Virus record (IMG/VR): IMGVR_UViG_3300043466_001944 | Coordinates: 1 to 20,949 of that record | Length of the DNA stretch: 20,949 nucleotides | Direction: 5' to 3' (one strand) | DNA from: a virus | Shown: in pieces, positions 4,279-15,175 of the stretch | Layout of the letters: the number at the start of each line of letters is the position of its first letter | Numbering within the stretch: the first letter of the stretch is position 1 | Program-made: the position numbers and the translations under genes | The notes under the pieces: generated by a model | Seen by the model: only the letters and a program-made list of their open reading frames with translations | Told to the model about the DNA's origin: nothing | The model's database searches: none

Positions 4279-6981
4279 CTAATTACCAAAACGATTGTTC
4301 AGGATTCTGGTTTCTCTTGATTTGGTTTGAATCTTCTTTGTGAACCCTCTTTCATCCATCGTCAGGGATGTGATTGGTAGCTTTGACAAGGTTTCTTTGA
4401 TTGAAATTAGTTCACTTACTATGTGACCATTTCCAGACTCACCACGGCCCTGATTCATCAGCTTTGAACCCATGAACCTTTCGGATTTGATCACCTCGTG
4501 ATGCGGAATCACTTGTGATCCTTTCGGCAGGTCAACCAAGGTAGCTACTCCTGGTGTTTCGTAAACTTGACCCGATGTAGTCACAACCCACTCTTTACCG
4601 ATCTCACCGACAATGGCCTTTCCTCCTTTGAAGGGCTTACCTTTCGTTCCTTCTTTGAACTCTGGAACTGGTTGGGCAAGAATGAATCCTATTTGTGCGG
4701 CTGCTGAAGCATAAGCTGCAATGGCTAGGGGTGCAGTAACAACTTTGGCTAAATGTTGGGCAATGATTGGAGCAACATTAAATATAACTTGAGAAACTGC
4801 GGCCATTCGTTGGGCTTCAAATGCCTTTCTCCGCAATGCTTTTTCTTCGGCTTCTTGCTTTTGTTTTAACTCTAAAACCTTTTGTTGATTGTCACCTGCC
4901 AGACGAATTTCCTCGGAATACTTACGATTAAGTAATGTGATTTCATTTTGAATGTTTTGTTGTTGGATATCAAAAAGAGATTGAACTGAGTTGGCAGCTA
5001 TATCATAATAGATTTGTGTTGCTTGGGCTTTTTCCTCTTCGGCTTTTTTCTTTGCTTTAACTTCATCCTCCAAATTAGCTTCATACATTTTTGACCAGTT
5101 TTTCATCCTGATTATTCCGGCATCCTGCTCTGCATCCAATGCTTTTGTATTGTCTTTGGCAAAATCAGCAGTTGCGGTCTTATTGACCATTTTCAAACCT
5201 TCATAGTATTGTTTTAAATCAAACAAACTCTTTTCGGCTTGCTTTTCGGTCAATTTAATTTCAGTTTGTGTTAACTCCTTAACTTTACCAAAATATTCAA
5301 GTTGTAGATTATATTTCTTATTAAGAAACTCTTTTTCGGCAATTAATCCTGCTTCTGGAACTCCTTGTAGAGTTAATTCAATTTCTCTTATCTGTTTTAA
5401 TCTTTCCAGATTTTGAAGTCTTAATTGGTATTCTTTTTTCTTTGCATCTTCAAGGGCTTTCTTTTCCTTTTCGGTCAGTTCAACCTTTGTTTTTTCATTA
5501 ATCTCATACCCTTTGATTTCTTTTTCAAGAGCATCCAAAACAATATTGGTATTCTTTAAATTGTCTTGAGCCGTTTTTAATGAGACCTTATTCCATGAGT
5601 TAGCGGTTATGATTTTTTGATTAGTGACCTCAGTCTCATATTTAGACTGAAACGCCAATGTCTCAACGTACTTCTGCATAACAATCTGATCCATTGTGGC
5701 GTTCTTGTTAGTGCTTTCCTGAACGGCCTTTAATCGTGCTTCCAGTTCGTTCTTCAGGTTCGTTGTGATGTTTGATTCAACTTTGGCCTCACGTTCTTTT
5801 TTCAATTCATCTTCCGATGTAGTTAGTTCACGAAGAGAATTCAAATAACCCGACCAAATATTTAGTTCACGTTGAATCAATCTCGATATTCCAGGCGATT
5901 CAAGAAACCGATCATAGGCTGTTTTAAAACGACCTAAAGAAGAACTTAAACTATTTACCTTCTTTTCAGCTGCCGCCCCAAAGGCATTCTCTAATTCAAC
6001 TGCGAACTTTGGAAGGAAATCAGCCGATATGACCTGACCTTGTTCGAGCATTTTATTGAGTTCCTTTGTGGTCACTCCCATCGCTTTGGCGGCAAGATTG
6101 AAAGCACCAGGAATTCGTTCACCGATCTGGCCTCTTAACTCTTCAGCCTGAACCGTACCTTTTGAAACGATTTGAGAGAAGGCCAAAAGGATGCCTTGTG
6201 TATCCTCATTTGATTTGCCAAGTGCTGTTGATGCTTTGACGGCAGCTTCAAATATCTTATTGGATTCTTCCAGTTTAATACCTGCCAGATTGGATGAGGC
6301 AGTAAACGATGAATAAGTTCCGGCAAGGGATTGCAGGTCTTTGCCGTATGTATTAGCCAGATTGGTCAGATATTGAAACGCTTTCCCGTTTTCTTGTTGG
6401 CCCTCGGTTGCATAGTCAATTGTCGTTCTTAAACCTTCAAAGGCGGCAGTAGTTGTAAATATCTTTTTAGTGAATTCGATTAGTGCTGCTCCGGCAAATG
6501 CCCGTTTAATCATTGGGCCTAATCCATCGGCAATACCGCCAATGTTTTTCATCCCACCTGCAACCTGTTCTGTTGATTTTCTACCTTCACGACCTGTTGT
6601 AACAAGGGTGGTATTGAGTTGAACTAACTTATCATTGAACGCCTTTGCTCCGGCCTCGGCTTTCTTTTCGGCTGCGGTTATTCCGGTAAATCCTGCACTT
6701 GCCTTGTTACCTGCTTCAACTGCCGCCTGTGCTGCCGTTTTCAGATTAGTTGTAAACGATCTAACTGCATCACTTGAATTCTTTATGGGAGTCAATGCAG
6801 ATACAAATGCCTTTTCAGATGATGAACCAACATTGAGTATTTCGGCATTGAGTTTCTTGGTTTCAAGAATCGCCCTTTTTTCAGCCTCGGTCAGTTTATC
6901 AAAGTTCTGTTGAGCCTTTTGAATATCACCCTCCTTGATGATGTATTCGACAACAATCTGATTGGTACTTAAGGTACTCAT
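4279..6981 (-). CDS. tail tape measure protein
   Basis: This 900-residue protein sets tail length and is threaded through the tail tube. Residues about 180-340 carry the conserved tape-measure N-terminal domain, with TYSSFTASS, GILLAFSQIVSKG and EELRGQIGERIPGAFNLAAKAMG. The rest is long Lys/Glu/Gln-rich coiled coil (about 390-740), then a hydrophobic Ala-rich segment (about 755-800) and a C-terminal GEIGKEWVV...LPKGSQVIPHHEV region common in these proteins. By the usual 0.15 nm per residue the tail would be near 135 nm, in the siphovirus range. The ATG overlaps by four bases (ATGA) the stop of the -1 frame of the upstream chaperone, which suggests translational coupling. A terminator follows the gene. 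Confidence 0.93.
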   Translation of the reverse strand: MSTLSTNQIVVEYIIKEGDIQKAQQNFDKLTEAEKRAILETKKLNAEILNVGSSSEKAFVSALTPIKNSSDAVRSFTTNLKTAAQAAVEAGNKASAGFTGITAAEKKAEAGAKAFNDKLVQLNTTLVTTGREGRKSTEQVAGGMKNIGGIADGLGPMIKRAFAGAALIEFTKKIFTTTAAFEGLRTTIDYATEGQQENGKAFQYLTNLANTYGKDLQSLAGTYSSFTASSNLAGIKLEESNKIFEAAVKASTALGKSNEDTQGILLAFSQIVSKGTVQAEELRGQIGERIPGAFNLAAKAMGVTTKELNKMLEQGQVISADFLPKFAVELENAFGAAAEKKVNSLSSSLGRFKTAYDRFLESPGISRLIQRELNIWSGYLNSLRELTTSEDELKKEREAKVESNITTNLKNELEARLKAVQESTNKNATMDQIVMQKYVETLAFQSKYETEVTNQKIITANSWNKVSLKTAQDNLKNTNIVLDALEKEIKGYEINEKTKVELTEKEKKALEDAKKKEYQLRLQNLERLKQIREIELTLQGVPEAGLIAEKEFLNKKYNLQLEYFGKVKELTQTEIKLTEKQAEKSLFDLKQYYEGLKMVNKTATADFAKDNTKALDAEQDAGIIRMKNWSKMYEANLEDEVKAKKKAEEEKAQATQIYYDIAANSVQSLFDIQQQNIQNEITLLNRKYSEEIRLAGDNQQKVLELKQKQEAEEKALRRKAFEAQRMAAVSQVIFNVAPIIAQHLAKVVTAPLAIAAYASAAAQIGFILAQPVPEFKEGTKGKPFKGGKAIVGEIGKEWVVTTSGQVYETPGVATLVDLPKGSQVIPHHEVIKSERFMGSKLMNQGRGESGNGHIVSELISIKETLSKLPITSLTMDERGFTKKIQTKSRETRILNNRFGN

Positions 6982-7265
6982 TTTTTCGCATTGGATTTGT
7001 CTTGCTTAAGTGATGCTACCCAATGCGAGTACATCAGATAGTAAGTATAGAGGGGTTGTTCGACCAATTGAGAAAGGTCTGTTCCCATTCCTTTTGCAAA
7101 GCTAAGATTTTCGTTGAATCTGCGTTTGAAGTCTCGGAGGCAAGTAATGTAATATGATGCTCTAACATCTTTAAATTCATCAGAGTTTCCCCCGTTAAAT
7201 AGGTGTTCAAACTCCTCTGTAATTCGTCTCCAGTAGTCAGATATTGATTTTCCGGAAGACTCAAA
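6978..7265 (-). CDS. -1 frame extension of the tail assembly chaperone (T-like part)
   Basis: A second open frame overlaps the 3' end of the 7034-7780 gene in the -1 frame and continues past its stop. A -1 slip on the T9 run at 7263-7271 would add 95 residues after residue 172, giving a 267-residue fusion. The added sequence looks like protein: it begins FESSGKSISDYWRRITEEFE, contains RASYYITCLRDFKRRFNE, and ends in a basic KQDKSNAKK. Its TGA (6980-6978) overlaps the tape-measure ATG at 6981. This is the arrangement of lambda gpG/gpGT and HK97-type chaperones: short and frameshifted long products directly before the tape measure. It has no good start codon of its own near the slip site. The frameshift is inferred; efficiency is unknown. 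Confidence 0.75.
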   Translation of the reverse strand, partial: FESSGKSISDYWRRITEEFEHLFNGGNSDEFKDVRASYYITCLRDFKRRFNENLSFAKGMGTDLSQLVEQPLYTYYLMYSHWVASLKQDKSNAKK

Positions 7266-7780
7266 AAAAAAGTGGGAACATCGGCATATTTAGCCCAATG
7301 TTCAATCTTGGTCTTGTTATAATCGTGCTGATAACTGAACGGATTTTCGATCTCGTCAAAGTATTTGACCGTTGCCAGTTTGATTTGAATCTGGACAGAG
7401 ATAGCCAGTTCTTTGCGTTCTTTGAGTCTGGCGTTCAATATACCGATCTCAATTAGTTTCTTGTTGGTCTTGATCTTTTCGGATTCCAGAACGGCATCAA
7501 CGGCTTTACAATGGCTATCCAGGTACACCGGATTAACTGCCGCATCCAACTCCCGATAAATGTCAATGGCTGCGTGCATCCTCTCGTAAGGAATGTTGAT
7601 GTCGTGACCAAAGCAGAAATAGTTCTTGTCACCAGAACGAAACGCAAACTTGATCTTATCCCAATGTTTCCGGTCGGCAGTCCCATTGTATTGAGGTGTT
7701 ACAGGTTGATCTTGCTGCGTAAGTATGCCAGTAGTTTGAGTGCCAGATGGTTTATTCCAAGGCCAAATATTGAAAGCCAT
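7034..7780 (-). CDS. tail assembly chaperone, unshifted product (G-like)
   Basis: This 248-residue protein is encoded immediately before the tape measure, the position of siphovirus tail assembly chaperones that bind the tape measure while the tube polymerises. I assign it by position and by the frameshift signal, not by a named domain. The sequence has a flexible Gln/Thr/Pro-rich N-terminus (about 10-35) and a long charged helix (about 90-145). At residues 171-172 the codons read ACT TTT TTT TTG, a perfect T TTT TTT slippery heptamer. The unshifted frame continues 76 residues further to TGA 7034, so 7034-7261 is open in both frames. It starts inside the 3' end of the upstream membrane-protein gene (82-bp overlap). 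No strong ribosome binding site is visible. Confidence 0.7.
   Translation of the reverse strand: MAFNIWPWNKPSGTQTTGILTQQDQPVTPQYNGTADRKHWDKIKFAFRSGDKNYFCFGHDINIPYERMHAAIDIYRELDAAVNPVYLDSHCKAVDAVLESEKIKTNKKLIEIGILNARLKERKELAISVQIQIKLATVKYFDEIENPFSYQHDYNKTKIEHWAKYADVPTFFLSLPENQYLTTGDELQRSLNTYLTGETLMNLKMLEHHITLLASETSNADSTKILALQKEWEQTFLNWSNNPSILTI
7263..7271 (-). other. programmed -1 frameshift slippery run
   Basis: Nine consecutive T on the minus strand fall in the chaperone frame as ACT TTT TTT TTG, matching X XXY YYZ with X = Y = T. After the slip the ribosome reads TTT GAG and continues in the -1 frame to the tape-measure start. A homopolymer of this length can also promote transcriptional slippage, which would give the same product. 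Confidence 0.75.
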
Positions 7781-8028
7781 ATAGGTTGATTAAAGTAAAA
7801 TATTGAGATGATAAGGTATTGCCATGCACCCGAACAAAAGAGGCATTCACCGAGGGGCTTTGCGATGTTTTCGGGCAGTTGGCTTAACTGGTTGAGATAC
7901 CATTGGAAAGGCGGCATATGATCCATCAGATAGTCCAAGAACAATGATAGCATTGCCGACAGTATCGCAATCTGAAACAGGGCTAATAATGCAGCATCCT
8001 CTGCGCTTGCCTCCACAATTTGATTCAT
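7699..8028 (-). CDS. small membrane protein before the tail chaperone
   Basis: The protein has 109 residues. Hydrophobic stretches near residues 13-32, about 70-84 and 83-98 suggest two to three transmembrane segments. Between them lies KPLGECLFCSGAW, a Cys-x2-Cys motif preceded by PLG. I have seen comparable KPLG-x-C-x2-C-x-G motifs in small membrane proteins of other phages, but I cannot name a function. It overlaps the start of the chaperone gene by 82 bp, which is long but within what compact phage genomes show. An alternative overlapping frame (7847-8038) is Arg/Cys-rich and looks like a shadow. A holin-like or virion-associated membrane role is possible and untested. Confidence 0.65.
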   Translation of the reverse strand: MNQIVEASAEDAALLALFQIAILSAMLSLFLDYLMDHMPPFQWYLNQLSQLPENIAKPLGECLFCSGAWQYLIISIFYFNQPIWLSIFGLGINHLALKLLAYLRSKINL

Positions 8029-8264: not shown

Positions 8265-8864
8265 TTAATCTGGGAATGTATTTAAATAACCCCTGAGGTC
8301 TTGCGGAGTATCAAATGAAATTAGATAGCTTCCATCATTTGCAAAAAACTTAATAATTGAACCTTTTTGAATCCCATTTACATTCAAATTTGGATATGGA
8401 CTTGTTGCATTGGGCCACGGGAAAAAATGTTGTTCAATTGTGAATTCACCCCTTTTTGAAAGAAGCTTATTGGTTGGAGTAGCATAATAAACTGGACTGC
8501 TTAGGTTATCCCCTTGACCTGCTAATAAAGTCATTAAAACGCCATCAATAATTGAATTATCTTCTGGATTTCTGTTGAAAAATGTCAATGCAGCCGAAAT
8601 TGTATTTACGTTACCCGGTATGTCAATCAACCATTGTTTTTGAAAATGATTGCTTCCAGATGGAACAAAATTAACCATATAACCTCTTATGGTTAATGAT
8701 AATTCCGAAACGTAAAAATCTCTTGCCTCAACCCAAAAGGTTTGATTTAATGAAATGGGTTGTTCGGGTATCCCACCGCTTGGTATTGGCTGAACTGTAG
8801 GCCCAGTAACCGAATTTCCTTGCCCGTAAAAAAAAGGACTAACGCAATTGCCGATGTATGCCAT
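8265..8864 (-). CDS. unknown protein of the packaging-tail module
   Basis: This 199-residue protein has no membrane span or signal peptide. The N-terminal 35 residues are Gly/Pro/Ser-rich and probably flexible; the rest is a mixture of beta strands with many aromatic and Asn residues, which suits a virion structural protein. I do not recognise the family. Its ATG overlaps the stop of the preceding gene (TAATG), so the two are translationally coupled. By position, between terminase and tail chaperone, it could be a head-tail connector or tube component, but no motif supports a choice. Confidence 0.7.
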   Translation of the reverse strand: MAYIGNCVSPFFYGQGNSVTGPTVQPIPSGGIPEQPISLNQTFWVEARDFYVSELSLTIRGYMVNFVPSGSNHFQKQWLIDIPGNVNTISAALTFFNRNPEDNSIIDGVLMTLLAGQGDNLSSPVYYATPTNKLLSKRGEFTIEQHFFPWPNATSPYPNLNVNGIQKGSIIKFFANDGSYLISFDTPQDLRGYLNTFPD

Positions 8865-9352
8865 TATTGTTGATTGTTTAAAGCTTGTAAAAATGTAAGT
8901 TCGTCAAATTGATTCTGTTGCTCATTGAGAGCAATTGAAACGTAGTTAATGTTTGTATTCATGTCTTCAGGAATAACTGTGTAAAAGGCATTCACAAAAG
9001 CAACCGTCTCATCTGTTGATCCGTTTGCAATATTGAATGAAATGCAATTATACATCTTTCCGTCAACTGCAACAAAATTCAATTCCTGCAAGGATGGACT
9101 CAAAAACCTGATTTCATACGGGCCACCATAGGATGAGAAGAACCCTTCGGGGATTGCTGCCGTTTCAACATTGATCTCAACGTGAGTACCACCGAGTACA
9201 TCCAAGGTCTGATATGTCACGTGGCCTTGTCCGTTCTTGATCCTGACTTTAATCTGGTCCTCCAGGTATCCAATTGGAACGTAGATAATCAAATCCTCAA
9301 AGCAACTAATCAGAGGCTCACAGATGGAGTAACACGTATTGCAGCAGTTCAT
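8864..9352 (-). CDS. Cys-rich N-terminus protein after the terminase
   Basis: I choose ATG 9352 (162 residues) rather than the TTG at 9361, because the ATG follows an A-rich ACAAA leader 5 nt after the terminase stop. The first 17 residues hold five Cys (3, 4, 7, 11 and 17), a CC-x2-C-x3-C-x5-C pattern that could bind a metal or form disulfides. The remainder is beta-rich without membrane segments. I recall similar Cys-tipped small proteins next to terminase genes in Bacteroidota phage genomes, but no function is known to me. It is coupled to the next gene by a TAATG overlap. A virion accessory role is inferred from position. Confidence 0.65.
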   Translation of the reverse strand: MNCCNTCYSICEPLISCFEDLIIYVPIGYLEDQIKVRIKNGQGHVTYQTLDVLGGTHVEINVETAAIPEGFFSSYGGPYEIRFLSPSLQELNFVAVDGKMYNCISFNIANGSTDETVAFVNAFYTVIPEDMNTNINYVSIALNEQQNQFDELTFLQALNNQQ

Positions 9353-9357
9353 TTTGT

Positions 9358-10656
9358 TCAATCAATTTCGTAATCGTTTGCAATTTCGTGAAAATTAGTG
9401 AAAACAAAATATCTGAACTCATCCAGACTGTGCGATAGGTTCGGGTTCTTCAGCTTCCAAGGGTCAAGGCTTCCTTTCCGGTCTACCTGTGCTTGTTTTA
9501 AATCTTCGATGAGCAGATCATTTTCTTCAGCTATCCTGACATTACAACGCTGAAGGACCATGTTGGTGATGACTCTGGACTGGATGTGTGACGGGTTCGC
9601 AGATGCGACCTGGATTTGCATATCATTCAATTGCAGATGCGATTTAATAGCCGTGTAGGCTGAGATGTTATCAGATGTGAATGCTGATTTGTTTTGACCA
9701 GATGCATCCCCGTTGATGATGAACTTTGCTTTTGGGAATTCAGCTCGGATTGTTTCACAAAGGATTTTCAGATCCCCGATTCGGTAGGTCTTGATCTTGT
9801 TGATGGTGGCGTAATACTTTTGGCCTTTGATGTTCTTCAGGAACTGATAGACTCCGCAGGTGTTGGTCACGTTAAAGTCAAATGAAAGGTAGATTTCAAA
9901 CTGAGGATTGATGTTGATCCTGCCCTTTACAACGTGCTTGTCGGCTTCGAATGAATAGGCAAAGGTTGAATCAATGTCTTCAACCCCCCAATCGCCCAAG
10001 GCCCAAACCTTGTACCTTCTCTCGCCTTCCATCCCGTGACCTTTGATCCTTAGAAGGCGTTCGTGTAGTGCATCCCGGTCAATGGTGTAATTATCCCAGA
10101 AGGTTGACTTGTGGAACAGGCAATCCGGTTTGTCTTTGTTTTCGTCAACTTCCCGTTTCAACCAATGATTGATTGATTCAGGATTCCAGTCCATTATGAG
10201 CGATATGGGAACGCCTGTTTCCCCTCGTAGGGTTGTGTCGATGTAATCAACATCTTCCCGTGTAAACTGATTGGCCTCGTTTAACCAGGCAATGTTAGCA
10301 CCTTCCACACCTTTACCCTTTTCGGCCTTGTCCATTCCCAGACCCCTGAACCAATTACCCGTGTGCTTATTGATGATCTCAAAGTGATTCTTGCGGATGA
10401 TAAAATCATTCTTGAAGTTCTTGTAAATTAGGTTCGTGAGCAGAGTAAAGGTAGAACCCTCGATGTCTGAGTAAACCTTTCTGGAATGAATCACATTGAA
10501 CTGGTAAGGCTGAAAGGAATGGTAGATTAGCTTTCTGGCTATGTTGTGACTCTTGGCTGATTGTCTTGTGCCATAGTGGCCTTCCTTTGTGTAGAGAGTT
10601 TCTACGAAAGGCCAGTACCATTGCAACCACCATTTACGGTCGAATTCGTAATTCAT
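9358..10656 (-). CDS. terL: terminase large subunit
   Basis: TerL is the ATP-driven motor and nuclease that packages DNA into the prohead. The 432 residues show an N-terminal ATPase with a Walker A variant GTRQSAKS (29-36), typical of phage terminases, and a Walker B-type segment NIAWLNEA (121-128) with the catalytic Glu. The C-terminal RNase H-like nuclease shows acidic residues in SFDFNVT (Asp260) and INGDASG (Asp317), and a late SLDEFRYFV motif. Length and order match PBSX/Terminase_3-type proteins. It follows the small subunit after 36 bp. An 8-bp inverted repeat ends on its start codon and could hide it. No portal gene follows, which is unusual. Confidence 0.93.
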   Translation of the reverse strand: MNYEFDRKWWLQWYWPFVETLYTKEGHYGTRQSAKSHNIARKLIYHSFQPYQFNVIHSRKVYSDIEGSTFTLLTNLIYKNFKNDFIIRKNHFEIINKHTGNWFRGLGMDKAEKGKGVEGANIAWLNEANQFTREDVDYIDTTLRGETGVPISLIMDWNPESINHWLKREVDENKDKPDCLFHKSTFWDNYTIDRDALHERLLRIKGHGMEGERRYKVWALGDWGVEDIDSTFAYSFEADKHVVKGRININPQFEIYLSFDFNVTNTCGVYQFLKNIKGQKYYATINKIKTYRIGDLKILCETIRAEFPKAKFIINGDASGQNKSAFTSDNISAYTAIKSHLQLNDMQIQVASANPSHIQSRVITNMVLQRCNVRIAEENDLLIEDLKQAQVDRKGSLDPWKLKNPNLSHSLDEFRYFVFTNFHEIANDYEID

Positions 10657-12114: not shown

Positions 12115-12149
12115 GGTTATTTTTTTTTTGATTGTTAGAAAATGAGGGG

Positions 12150-12529: not shown

Positions 12530-12889
12530 ATGGTACTGAAACATTTCACTCTCGCTGAATTCGATTCGAAGGATGCTCCTGGTTCTGGTTCACAAATGCA
12601 GCCTGATTTTTTGATAAAACTTGACAAGGCCCGTTCATTGTGCGGAATTCCTTTTAAGATAAATTCAGGCTTCAGGACTCCGGCTCATAACAAGGCGGTC
12701 GGTGGTGAACCGAATTCATCGCATACCAAAGGTTGGGCGGCTGACATCGGGTATTCGTCAGGAACGGAAGGATACAGGATTCTTTGCTCACTTCAGGCGG
12801 TCGGGTTTAACCGGATTGGGATTTACAAATCATTTATTCACGTTGACTGTGATCCTGCATTACCTTCGCACGTTATTTGGTCGAAATAA
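12530..12889 (+). CDS. endolysin, peptidase M15 family
   Basis: This 119-residue protein matches the zinc D-Ala-D-Ala peptidase fold of the M15 family (Peptidase_M15_3 type), which cleaves peptide bonds in peptidoglycan. The zinc ligands are visible as SSHTKGWAAD (His65, Asp72) and IHVDCD (His104), with the supporting INSGFRTPAHNKAVGG segment at 44-59. The N-terminus (KHFTLAEFDS) is typical. There is no signal peptide, so export to the periplasm would need the holin. It is the first gene of a four-gene rightward cassette; its stop overlaps the next ATG (TAATG). The start is fixed by the promoter directly upstream. Confidence 0.92.
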   Translation: MVLKHFTLAEFDSKDAPGSGSQMQPDFLIKLDKARSLCGIPFKINSGFRTPAHNKAVGGEPNSSHTKGWAADIGYSSGTEGYRILCSLQAVGFNRIGIYKSFIHVDCDPALPSHVIWSK

Positions 12890-13909: not shown

Positions 13910-15175
13910 TCATTTCAAACTCACTTCAAATATTCTGCTGATATTACTTGTTCCTGTTGTAGTCAGCACAAATCTCTTTCCGGTCGTATTGATCGCCTTA
14001 GTGAACTTAATTTTCTTGTCAAATCCCAAAGGCACATTCACGCCATCGACCGTTAATGTCAATGTCTGGTTCGGGCTGCCACCATTGAATCCTGAACTCA
14101 AATAAACCTGCGTCCGTGTTACCGGTTGAGCAAACGTCCATGTCAGCGTTGTTGGTCCTGCGGTGAGCCATCTGGTTGCCTCGTTCCCATCAACTGCCTT
14201 TGCCGTGTCTGCTCTTGTGTATCCGGGCTGATATGGCGTTCCGGCAATTCTAAAGGTGTTGGTTCCGGTTGGTGGTGGAGGAGGTGGATTAGTTGAATAA
14301 TCCGGCAGATTGGAGTAGAACAATGATTTGTGTAATACTGGTACAACGGCAGGATGCAGGGTATACTGCATCGTATTGTACAAGTGGCAATAACTATTCA
14401 AACCCCCAGCCATTCTTTTTGTCGTGCTTGAACAATTGGTTGGCGTTGGTGAACAAGTGATCTCAGCCGAATAGCAACTATCCAGACGGCCCAATGACAC
14501 ACCTGTTTGGGATTTCCATGCACAACAGTTTTGCGTGTGTGAGATGCCTAAATTATGAAGAAGTTCATGGGTGAAACAATACACCGAATAGGTGTAAAAC
14601 TCCCCATCTCCCGGAATGGATTGACCAAACCCACAAACGGAATATCTGGCAGACGTTACGTTTTCCCGACTTATGTAGGCAATACCGCCAAAGTTTTTGC
14701 CCGAAATAAATACGTTGAATGTGTCTTTTTTCAACGGATTGGCGTTGCCCCAATAATACAACACACTCATTGCATCGGGATAGATGGCATACGGATCAGG
14801 CGTTGTCCATTTCTTAACCTTCACCAGATTGATCTTTGGACCTGCAATGCGCTCCAATATCTGAGACGATGAATTGCACAGCCTTTGCAGATTGGCATCG
14901 GCATTCGCACCCCATGCGGTTGTCAAAGAGTAATCCAGTTCAATGTATACATTCATTGTTTTTCTTGACCGATAAGTCGGATCCCAGAAGTTGGGTTCAG
15001 CCTGACCCCGTAAAAGGATTTTAGGATGATCCTCTTTCACTTCAACTTCATCATTTCCAAGATCGGGCGGAACGAATGTTAAATCGGTGGTGGATGATGC
15101 CCTTTCAGGCATTTGCTTTGTGCATCCTGTAAGATAGACAAGCGCAATAATGATAAATAGCAATGTGTGTTTCAT
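13910..15175 (-). CDS. lipoprotein metalloprotease (reprolysin-like metzincin) with discoidin-like domain
   Basis: The 421 residues start with a lipoprotein signal (hydrophobic 4-15, lipobox LTGC with Cys18), so the protein is exported and lipid-anchored. The catalytic domain (about 70-290) has the full metzincin zinc motif HELLHNLGISH (203-213) and nine Cys in the region 100-263, suggesting disulfides. It resembles secreted Bacteroidota reprolysin-like peptidases with a C-S-P-x-P-T ... SYCHL segment; those I remember have I-M-S-Y-C-H, whereas here it is GLNSYCHL, so the usual Met-turn Met appears to be Asn260. A PPPPPP linker (297-302) leads to a C-terminal beta domain (about 305-421) with AKAVDGNEATRW, the signature of discoidin/F5-8C carbohydrate-binding domains. 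It starts 3 bp after the small gene at 15179, as the last gene of the replication transcript. Probably accessory cargo acting on surface or host-associated proteins; substrate unknown. Confidence 0.88.
   Translation of the reverse strand: MKHTLLFIIIALVYLTGCTKQMPERASSTTDLTFVPPDLGNDEVEVKEDHPKILLRGQAEPNFWDPTYRSRKTMNVYIELDYSLTTAWGANADANLQRLCNSSSQILERIAGPKINLVKVKKWTTPDPYAIYPDAMSVLYYWGNANPLKKDTFNVFISGKNFGGIAYISRENVTSARYSVCGFGQSIPGDGEFYTYSVYCFTHELLHNLGISHTQNCCAWKSQTGVSLGRLDSCYSAEITCSPTPTNCSSTTKRMAGGLNSYCHLYNTMQYTLHPAVVPVLHKSLFYSNLPDYSTNPPPPPPTGTNTFRIAGTPYQPGYTRADTAKAVDGNEATRWLTAGPTTLTWTFAQPVTRTQVYLSSGFNGGSPNQTLTLTVDGVNVPLGFDKKIKFTKAINTTGKRFVLTTTGTSNISRIFEVSLK

Follow-up and report, generated by a model that had tools for sequence, protein, structure and literature searches.

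The gene that precedes the tape measure gene in this virus carries a run of nine Ts, from which a second reading frame is open as far as the tape measure start and the first frame also remains open for about 76 codons of the same DNA. The question raised by this locus is whether the two frames supply alternative C termini of one protein, reached by a programmed change of frame and each maintained by selection, or whether one of them is open by chance. The slip site, its register, its conservation, and the constraint on both frames were established by computation here; that shifting takes place, at what rate, and what the products bind is inferred. Judged from these sequence comparisons, the locus is very probably a tail assembly chaperone gene of the lambda G/GT type, with programmed -1 ribosomal frameshifting and two alternative C termini.

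The locus and its relatives

Positions are those of the window, which is the whole stretch of DNA that was analyzed (20,949 nt). The features of the locus are as follows:

4279-6981, minus strand: tape measure protein gene, 900 aa (Pfam TMP_3, 6.5e-36; PHROG tail length tape measure, 7.9e-52)
6978-7033, minus strand: -1-only portion past the zero-frame stop, its TGA overlapping the tape measure ATG
6978-7265, minus strand: ORF of the -1-frame extension, with 95 residues past the slip, accessible by recoding only
7034-7262, minus strand: dual-coding region of about 229 bp, encoding the zero-frame C-terminal tail (76 aa) and the -1 extension
7034-7780, minus strand: zero-frame chaperone-like gene, the unshifted product, 248 aa, kept in all relatives
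7263-7271, minus strand: T9 homopolymer (T9 in 105/108 distinct relatives listed, T7 in 3/108)
7265-7271, minus strand: slippery heptamer T TTT TTT (P-site TTT, A-site TTT), within the T9 run
7699-8028, minus strand: membrane-like ORF of about 109 aa upstream of the chaperone gene, overlapping its 5' end at 7699-7780

The T run forms part of ACT TTT TTT TTG, which lies in frame at 7273-7262 on the minus strand (ACT at 7273-7271), and the coordinates and lengths given in the original prediction were right. The zero frame runs on for 76 residues beyond the second TTT, to a TGA at 7036-7034, and the -1 frame, open from the T run onward, reaches a TGA at 6980-6978, which forms an ATGA overlap with the tape measure ATG at 6981, again as had been claimed; the stretch over which both frames are open, put earlier at about 228 bp, comes to about 229 bp (7262-7034). 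The residues leading into the slip junction are ADVPTFF, followed in the predicted fused product by -1 residues, and the two frames are represented by the peptides ITEEFEHLF in the -1 extension and SLNTYLTGETLMNLK in the zero-frame tail. The sole other A or T run of at least nine in the window is a T10 run at 12120-12129.

Relatives were collected from IMG/VR by searches with progressively wider alignments, down to about 30% amino-acid identity; in one search, 256 relatives were confirmed by tblastn and the best 80 of the 256 were taken. The figure of 108 used here is the number of distinct complete overlap sequences among the matches listed, with identical sequences collapsed (many contigs had been fetched twice) and loci cut by contig ends left out. 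Window-like relatives are about 77-99% identical, the L037/L038 group about 50%, L039-L048 with L091 about 48%, and the L124-L131 group about 37-39%. Identity is about 33-37% for a large group made up of L186-L220 and L237-L314, and there is a further subgroup that includes L239, L253, L259, L280, and L317. Searches of isolate phage records and of GTDB genomes found no relatives, and the arrangement belongs to a widespread set of uncultured tailed phages. The proteins encoded before the tape measure gene in Leeuwenhoekiella and Polaribacter phages were tried and rejected; they are unlike the window protein and are without a long alternative frame.

Among the distinct relatives listed, the T TTT TTT heptamer occurs in the same register in 108/108, the zero-frame tail is 79-85 codons long in 108/108 (counted from the codon preceding the T run), and the -1 ORF is 92-104 codons long in 108/108, with stops in either frame in 0/108. 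The original prediction had named an absence of -1-frame homologues in related phages, or stops in that frame in relatives, as results that would speak against it, and neither was encountered. When 12 divergent representatives were aligned as DNA, the seven Ts that make up T_TTT_TTT proved to be the sole long invariant block. The codon preceding the first TTT varies between ACT, AGT, GCT, GGT, and GAT (Thr, Ser, Ala, Gly, Asp), and its third base is T in every case; in the upstream part of the same genes, T-ending codons make up only 20-26% of those for Thr, Ser, Ala, and Gly, and 58% of those for Asp. Three members of the further subgroup, L259, L280, and L317, have a T7 variant (GAT TTT TTT ATT) with both frames intact.

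Identity of the gene before the tape measure

The gene lies immediately upstream of the tape measure gene in the window, as identified by Pfam TMP_3, and contains a slippery heptamer from which the -1 frame is open to near the tape measure start. In this it resembles lambda gpG/gpGT, in which the gene before the tape measure undergoes a -1 shift, the two products have a common N terminus, and the -1 product ends beside the tape measure start (PMC5009743). In the relatives checked by position (7/7), the next gene is a tape-measure-sized ORF whose start lies between -4 and +83 nt relative to the -1 stop. When the downstream ORF of five relatives was compared with Pfam TMP_3, three were above the cut-off, that of L041 was below it, and that of L195 had no match. 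The ATGA overlap is not universal, with a gap of 74-83 nt between the -1 stop and the tape measure start in L195, L206, L253, and L259.

We infer the name tail assembly chaperone from position and recoding rather than from homology, since homology to described chaperones was not found. Neither product has a useful match in Pfam or PHROG, and none that identifies a chaperone, and a PDB sequence search gave no match for the chaperone-like protein. The structure model of the zero-frame product is poor (pLDDT 49) and that of the -1 extension is acceptable (pLDDT 72), and a fold search with the latter gave no match. Of the earlier claim of a frameshifted tail assembly chaperone, the -1 shift and the position before the tape measure are supported by the sequence comparisons. 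The lack of profile or fold homology to known chaperones would also suit genuine recoding in a gene for a different tail morphogenesis factor; this is unlikely, given that in the clades checked the gene directly precedes the tape measure gene and the -1 product ends near the start of the latter, a placement that is the standard G/GT arrangement.

In lambda, the tape measure protein is bound by G, whereas T has the tail tube protein as its partner (PMC5009743). If the window gene is a chaperone of this type, then by analogy the part common to both products would attach to the tape measure protein, the -1 extension would recruit tail tube subunits, and the shift rate would set the ratio of the two products, which would be expected at a fixed ratio and outside the virion. 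The slip site is a U run in the window gene and a G/A sequence, GGGAAAG, in lambda, and no sequence homology was detected between the two. The lambda zero frame ends 18 nt (5 codons plus the stop) past GGGAAAG, so that an unshifted product ending soon after the slip is a lambda trait that is not found here, with 76 residues compared with 5; the original prediction had drawn this distinction correctly. In the case of HK97, gp13/gp14 includes an annotated -1 frameshift product, encoded between the tail subunit and the tape measure as here, and no sequence relation of the window gene to gp13/gp14 was found. Members of the HK97-related cluster shift at 6-7% in vivo (PMC3711429).

On the minus strand, the terminase large subunit gene and only two genes of unknown family occupy 10656 to 8265, with the membrane-like ORF next and then the chaperone gene. 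Genes of the G/GT type follow the major tail protein gene; here the upstream genes at 8265-8864 and 8864-9361 gave no informative Pfam or PHROG match, and neither could be recognized as encoding that protein. Between the terminase and tail genes there is, unusually, no recognizable portal or capsid gene. The membrane-like ORF of about 109 aa is conserved in all clades checked; it has a conserved Cys-x-x-Cys...Trp motif and an 82-bp overlap with the chaperone 5' end. Elsewhere in the window, a 421-aa ORF at 13910-15175 on the minus strand begins like a lipoprotein and carries an HExxHxxGxxH motif (HELLHNLGISH), which gives it the look of a phage-encoded secreted zinc metalloprotease, and a 119-aa ORF at 12530-12889 on the plus strand is, by eye, peptidase M15-type endolysin-like (SxHxxGxAxD-like motif).

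The proposed change of frame at the T run

A heptamer of the X XXY YYZ type is present in the zero-frame register and is under selection, as is expected of programmed -1 frameshifting, and it is ribosomal -1 frameshifting that best fits an invariant, phased heptamer. Most ribosomes would read ACT TTT TTT TTG in frame to give the 248-residue protein, and a minority would move one base back on T_TTT_TTT to give a protein of about 267 residues, in which the first 172 residues, common to both products, would be followed by a different 95-residue, mainly helical C terminus. No strong or conserved RNA structure was found downstream of the site, with z values from -1.4 to +0.2 and no shared stem-loop among folds free of pseudoknots.

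A serious rival is slippage of RNA polymerase on the T9 run, because runs of nine A or T are reported to be efficiently slippery for bacterial RNA polymerase (PMC5009743); a share of the transcripts, with an extra U, would then be read by ordinary ribosomes into the -1 frame. The Thermus dnaX gene undergoes such transcriptional slippage at nine Ts, the same run length as here (PMC5009743), and T9 is kept in all but three of the 108 distinct relatives listed. A homopolymer of about nine or more in all members, as transcriptional slippage would demand, is nevertheless not what is found: L259, L280, and L317 keep both frames intact with T7 in codon register, which, unlike the Thermus dnaX case, points to ribosomes. 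As these three relatives have the canonical heptamer alone, they favor ribosomal -1 frameshifting over polymerase slippage. Moreover, the invariant part is exactly the 7-base ribosomal site in register, the two extra Ts are explicable by Phe and Leu codons of both frames, and runs of T9 or longer and A9 or longer are not depleted in the window (2 observed, 3.1 expected by chance). Polymerase slippage as the source of the -1 product is thus quite unlikely, and it could be an added contributor to ribosomal frameshifting where T9 is present.

Evidence for selection on the two C termini

When the zero-frame protein was held fixed and its synonymous codons were resampled, the -1 frame was open in 0.08-1.7% of trials (seven representatives), and the third frame of the same seven sequences contains 8-13 stops. 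When the -1 protein was held fixed, the zero frame was open in about 6-13% of trials, for a single sequence each. The latter figure would allow that one end alone matters, with the zero frame past the slip, or else the -1 frame, open by chance and unselected, but this becomes very improbable when the frames are open in 108/108 distinct relatives listed with a near-constant tail length, when amino-acid conservation in each frame exceeds the expectation from the other frame in most pairs, and when synonymous change is suppressed exactly across the overlap.

Full codon resampling overstates significance because it destroys relatedness, and it was rejected for that purpose; we relied instead on a relatedness-keeping simulation that uses the upstream synonymous divergence of each pair. 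In six of the eight pairs the -1 score was reached in at most 0.2% of simulations and the zero-frame score in at most 0.5%. Constraint was weaker for the window and L041 (-1, 332/5000 = 6.6%; zero, 1.8%) and for L037 and L041 (-1, 57/5000 = 1.1%; zero, 3.0%), both of which are among the most distant pairs.

The synonymous differences are pairwise counts rather than tree-based and are therefore descriptive. In the zero frame of 24 window-like sequences they are 0.28-0.42 in most upstream blocks and 0.07-0.15 in the overlap blocks, with the fall located exactly at the slip codon; the final overlap block, which extends past the zero-frame stop, has a value of 0.03, and the tape measure gene has 0.13 over codons 1-15 and 0.36-0.55 beyond codon 15. 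A translation-initiation or RNA constraint may also contribute to the low values over the short -1-only tail and the tape measure start. The drop is seen in clade 5, too, with values in 54 sequences of the large group of 0.28-0.45 upstream compared with 0.10-0.26 in the overlap. The far 5' blocks of the chaperone gene are also low (0.11-0.18) where the upstream ORF overlaps, and together with the conservation of that ORF this suggests that the chaperone gene is overlapped at both ends. A comparison of codon usage between the two frames gave no indication of which is older.

Overlapping independent genes occur in phages, and the -1 ORF might be a gene translated from its own internal start with no fusion. 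This is extremely improbable because the first 60 -1 codons contain no ATG, GTG, or TTG in the clade 1, 2, and 4 representatives; L128 has none whatever, and the conserved heptamer is positioned at the join of two conserved proteins. Homopolymer runs are prone to error, but a sequencing error or a broken gene is refuted by the recurrence of the run, in identical phase and with both frames open, in 108 distinct sequences drawn from many metagenomes.

The simulations and the synonymous drop bear out the earlier description of both C termini as protein-like, substantial, and different, and they support the view that both are real, selected protein segments from the same 229 bp. Under such selection, the frameshift would decide which of two alternative ends the protein receives, and the products would not be related as a short form and its extension. 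The closest long dual-coding parallel is SPP1 gp17.5/gp17.5*, with a putative -1 shift at UUUUUUC, a U-run site as here; the published lengths, by which the two were compared, are 173 aa for 17.5 and 297 aa for 17.5* with 112 shared, leaving 61 unshared zero-frame residues (PMC6316719). A long overlap is thus not unprecedented, and as SPP1 also departs from the early zero-frame end, that end appears to be a trait of lambda and not universal to this kind of gene. The account of the two SPP1 products does not report selection on both frames (PMC6316719), and homology with the window gene is not established.

The window gene probably represents an undescribed chaperone family whose frameshift acts as a real fork between independently selected C termini of about 80 and about 95 residues. 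Within this reading, the arrangement is intact across a deep phage radiation, which suggests that the unshifted tail is essential in its own right for tail assembly and would have a role of its own. What appears to be new is the family, along with the finding, from comparison of relatives, that neither end has been lost. The family would provide a natural, deeply sampled case in which about 76 codons of one DNA have two protein ends under selection, in a kind of system for which the shift ratio is known from lambda to be important to assembly. The question of a separate job for the unshifted chaperone tail is thereby opened to testing, and more than 100 natural variants, T7 and T9 sites included, may serve for dissecting a U-run slippery site.
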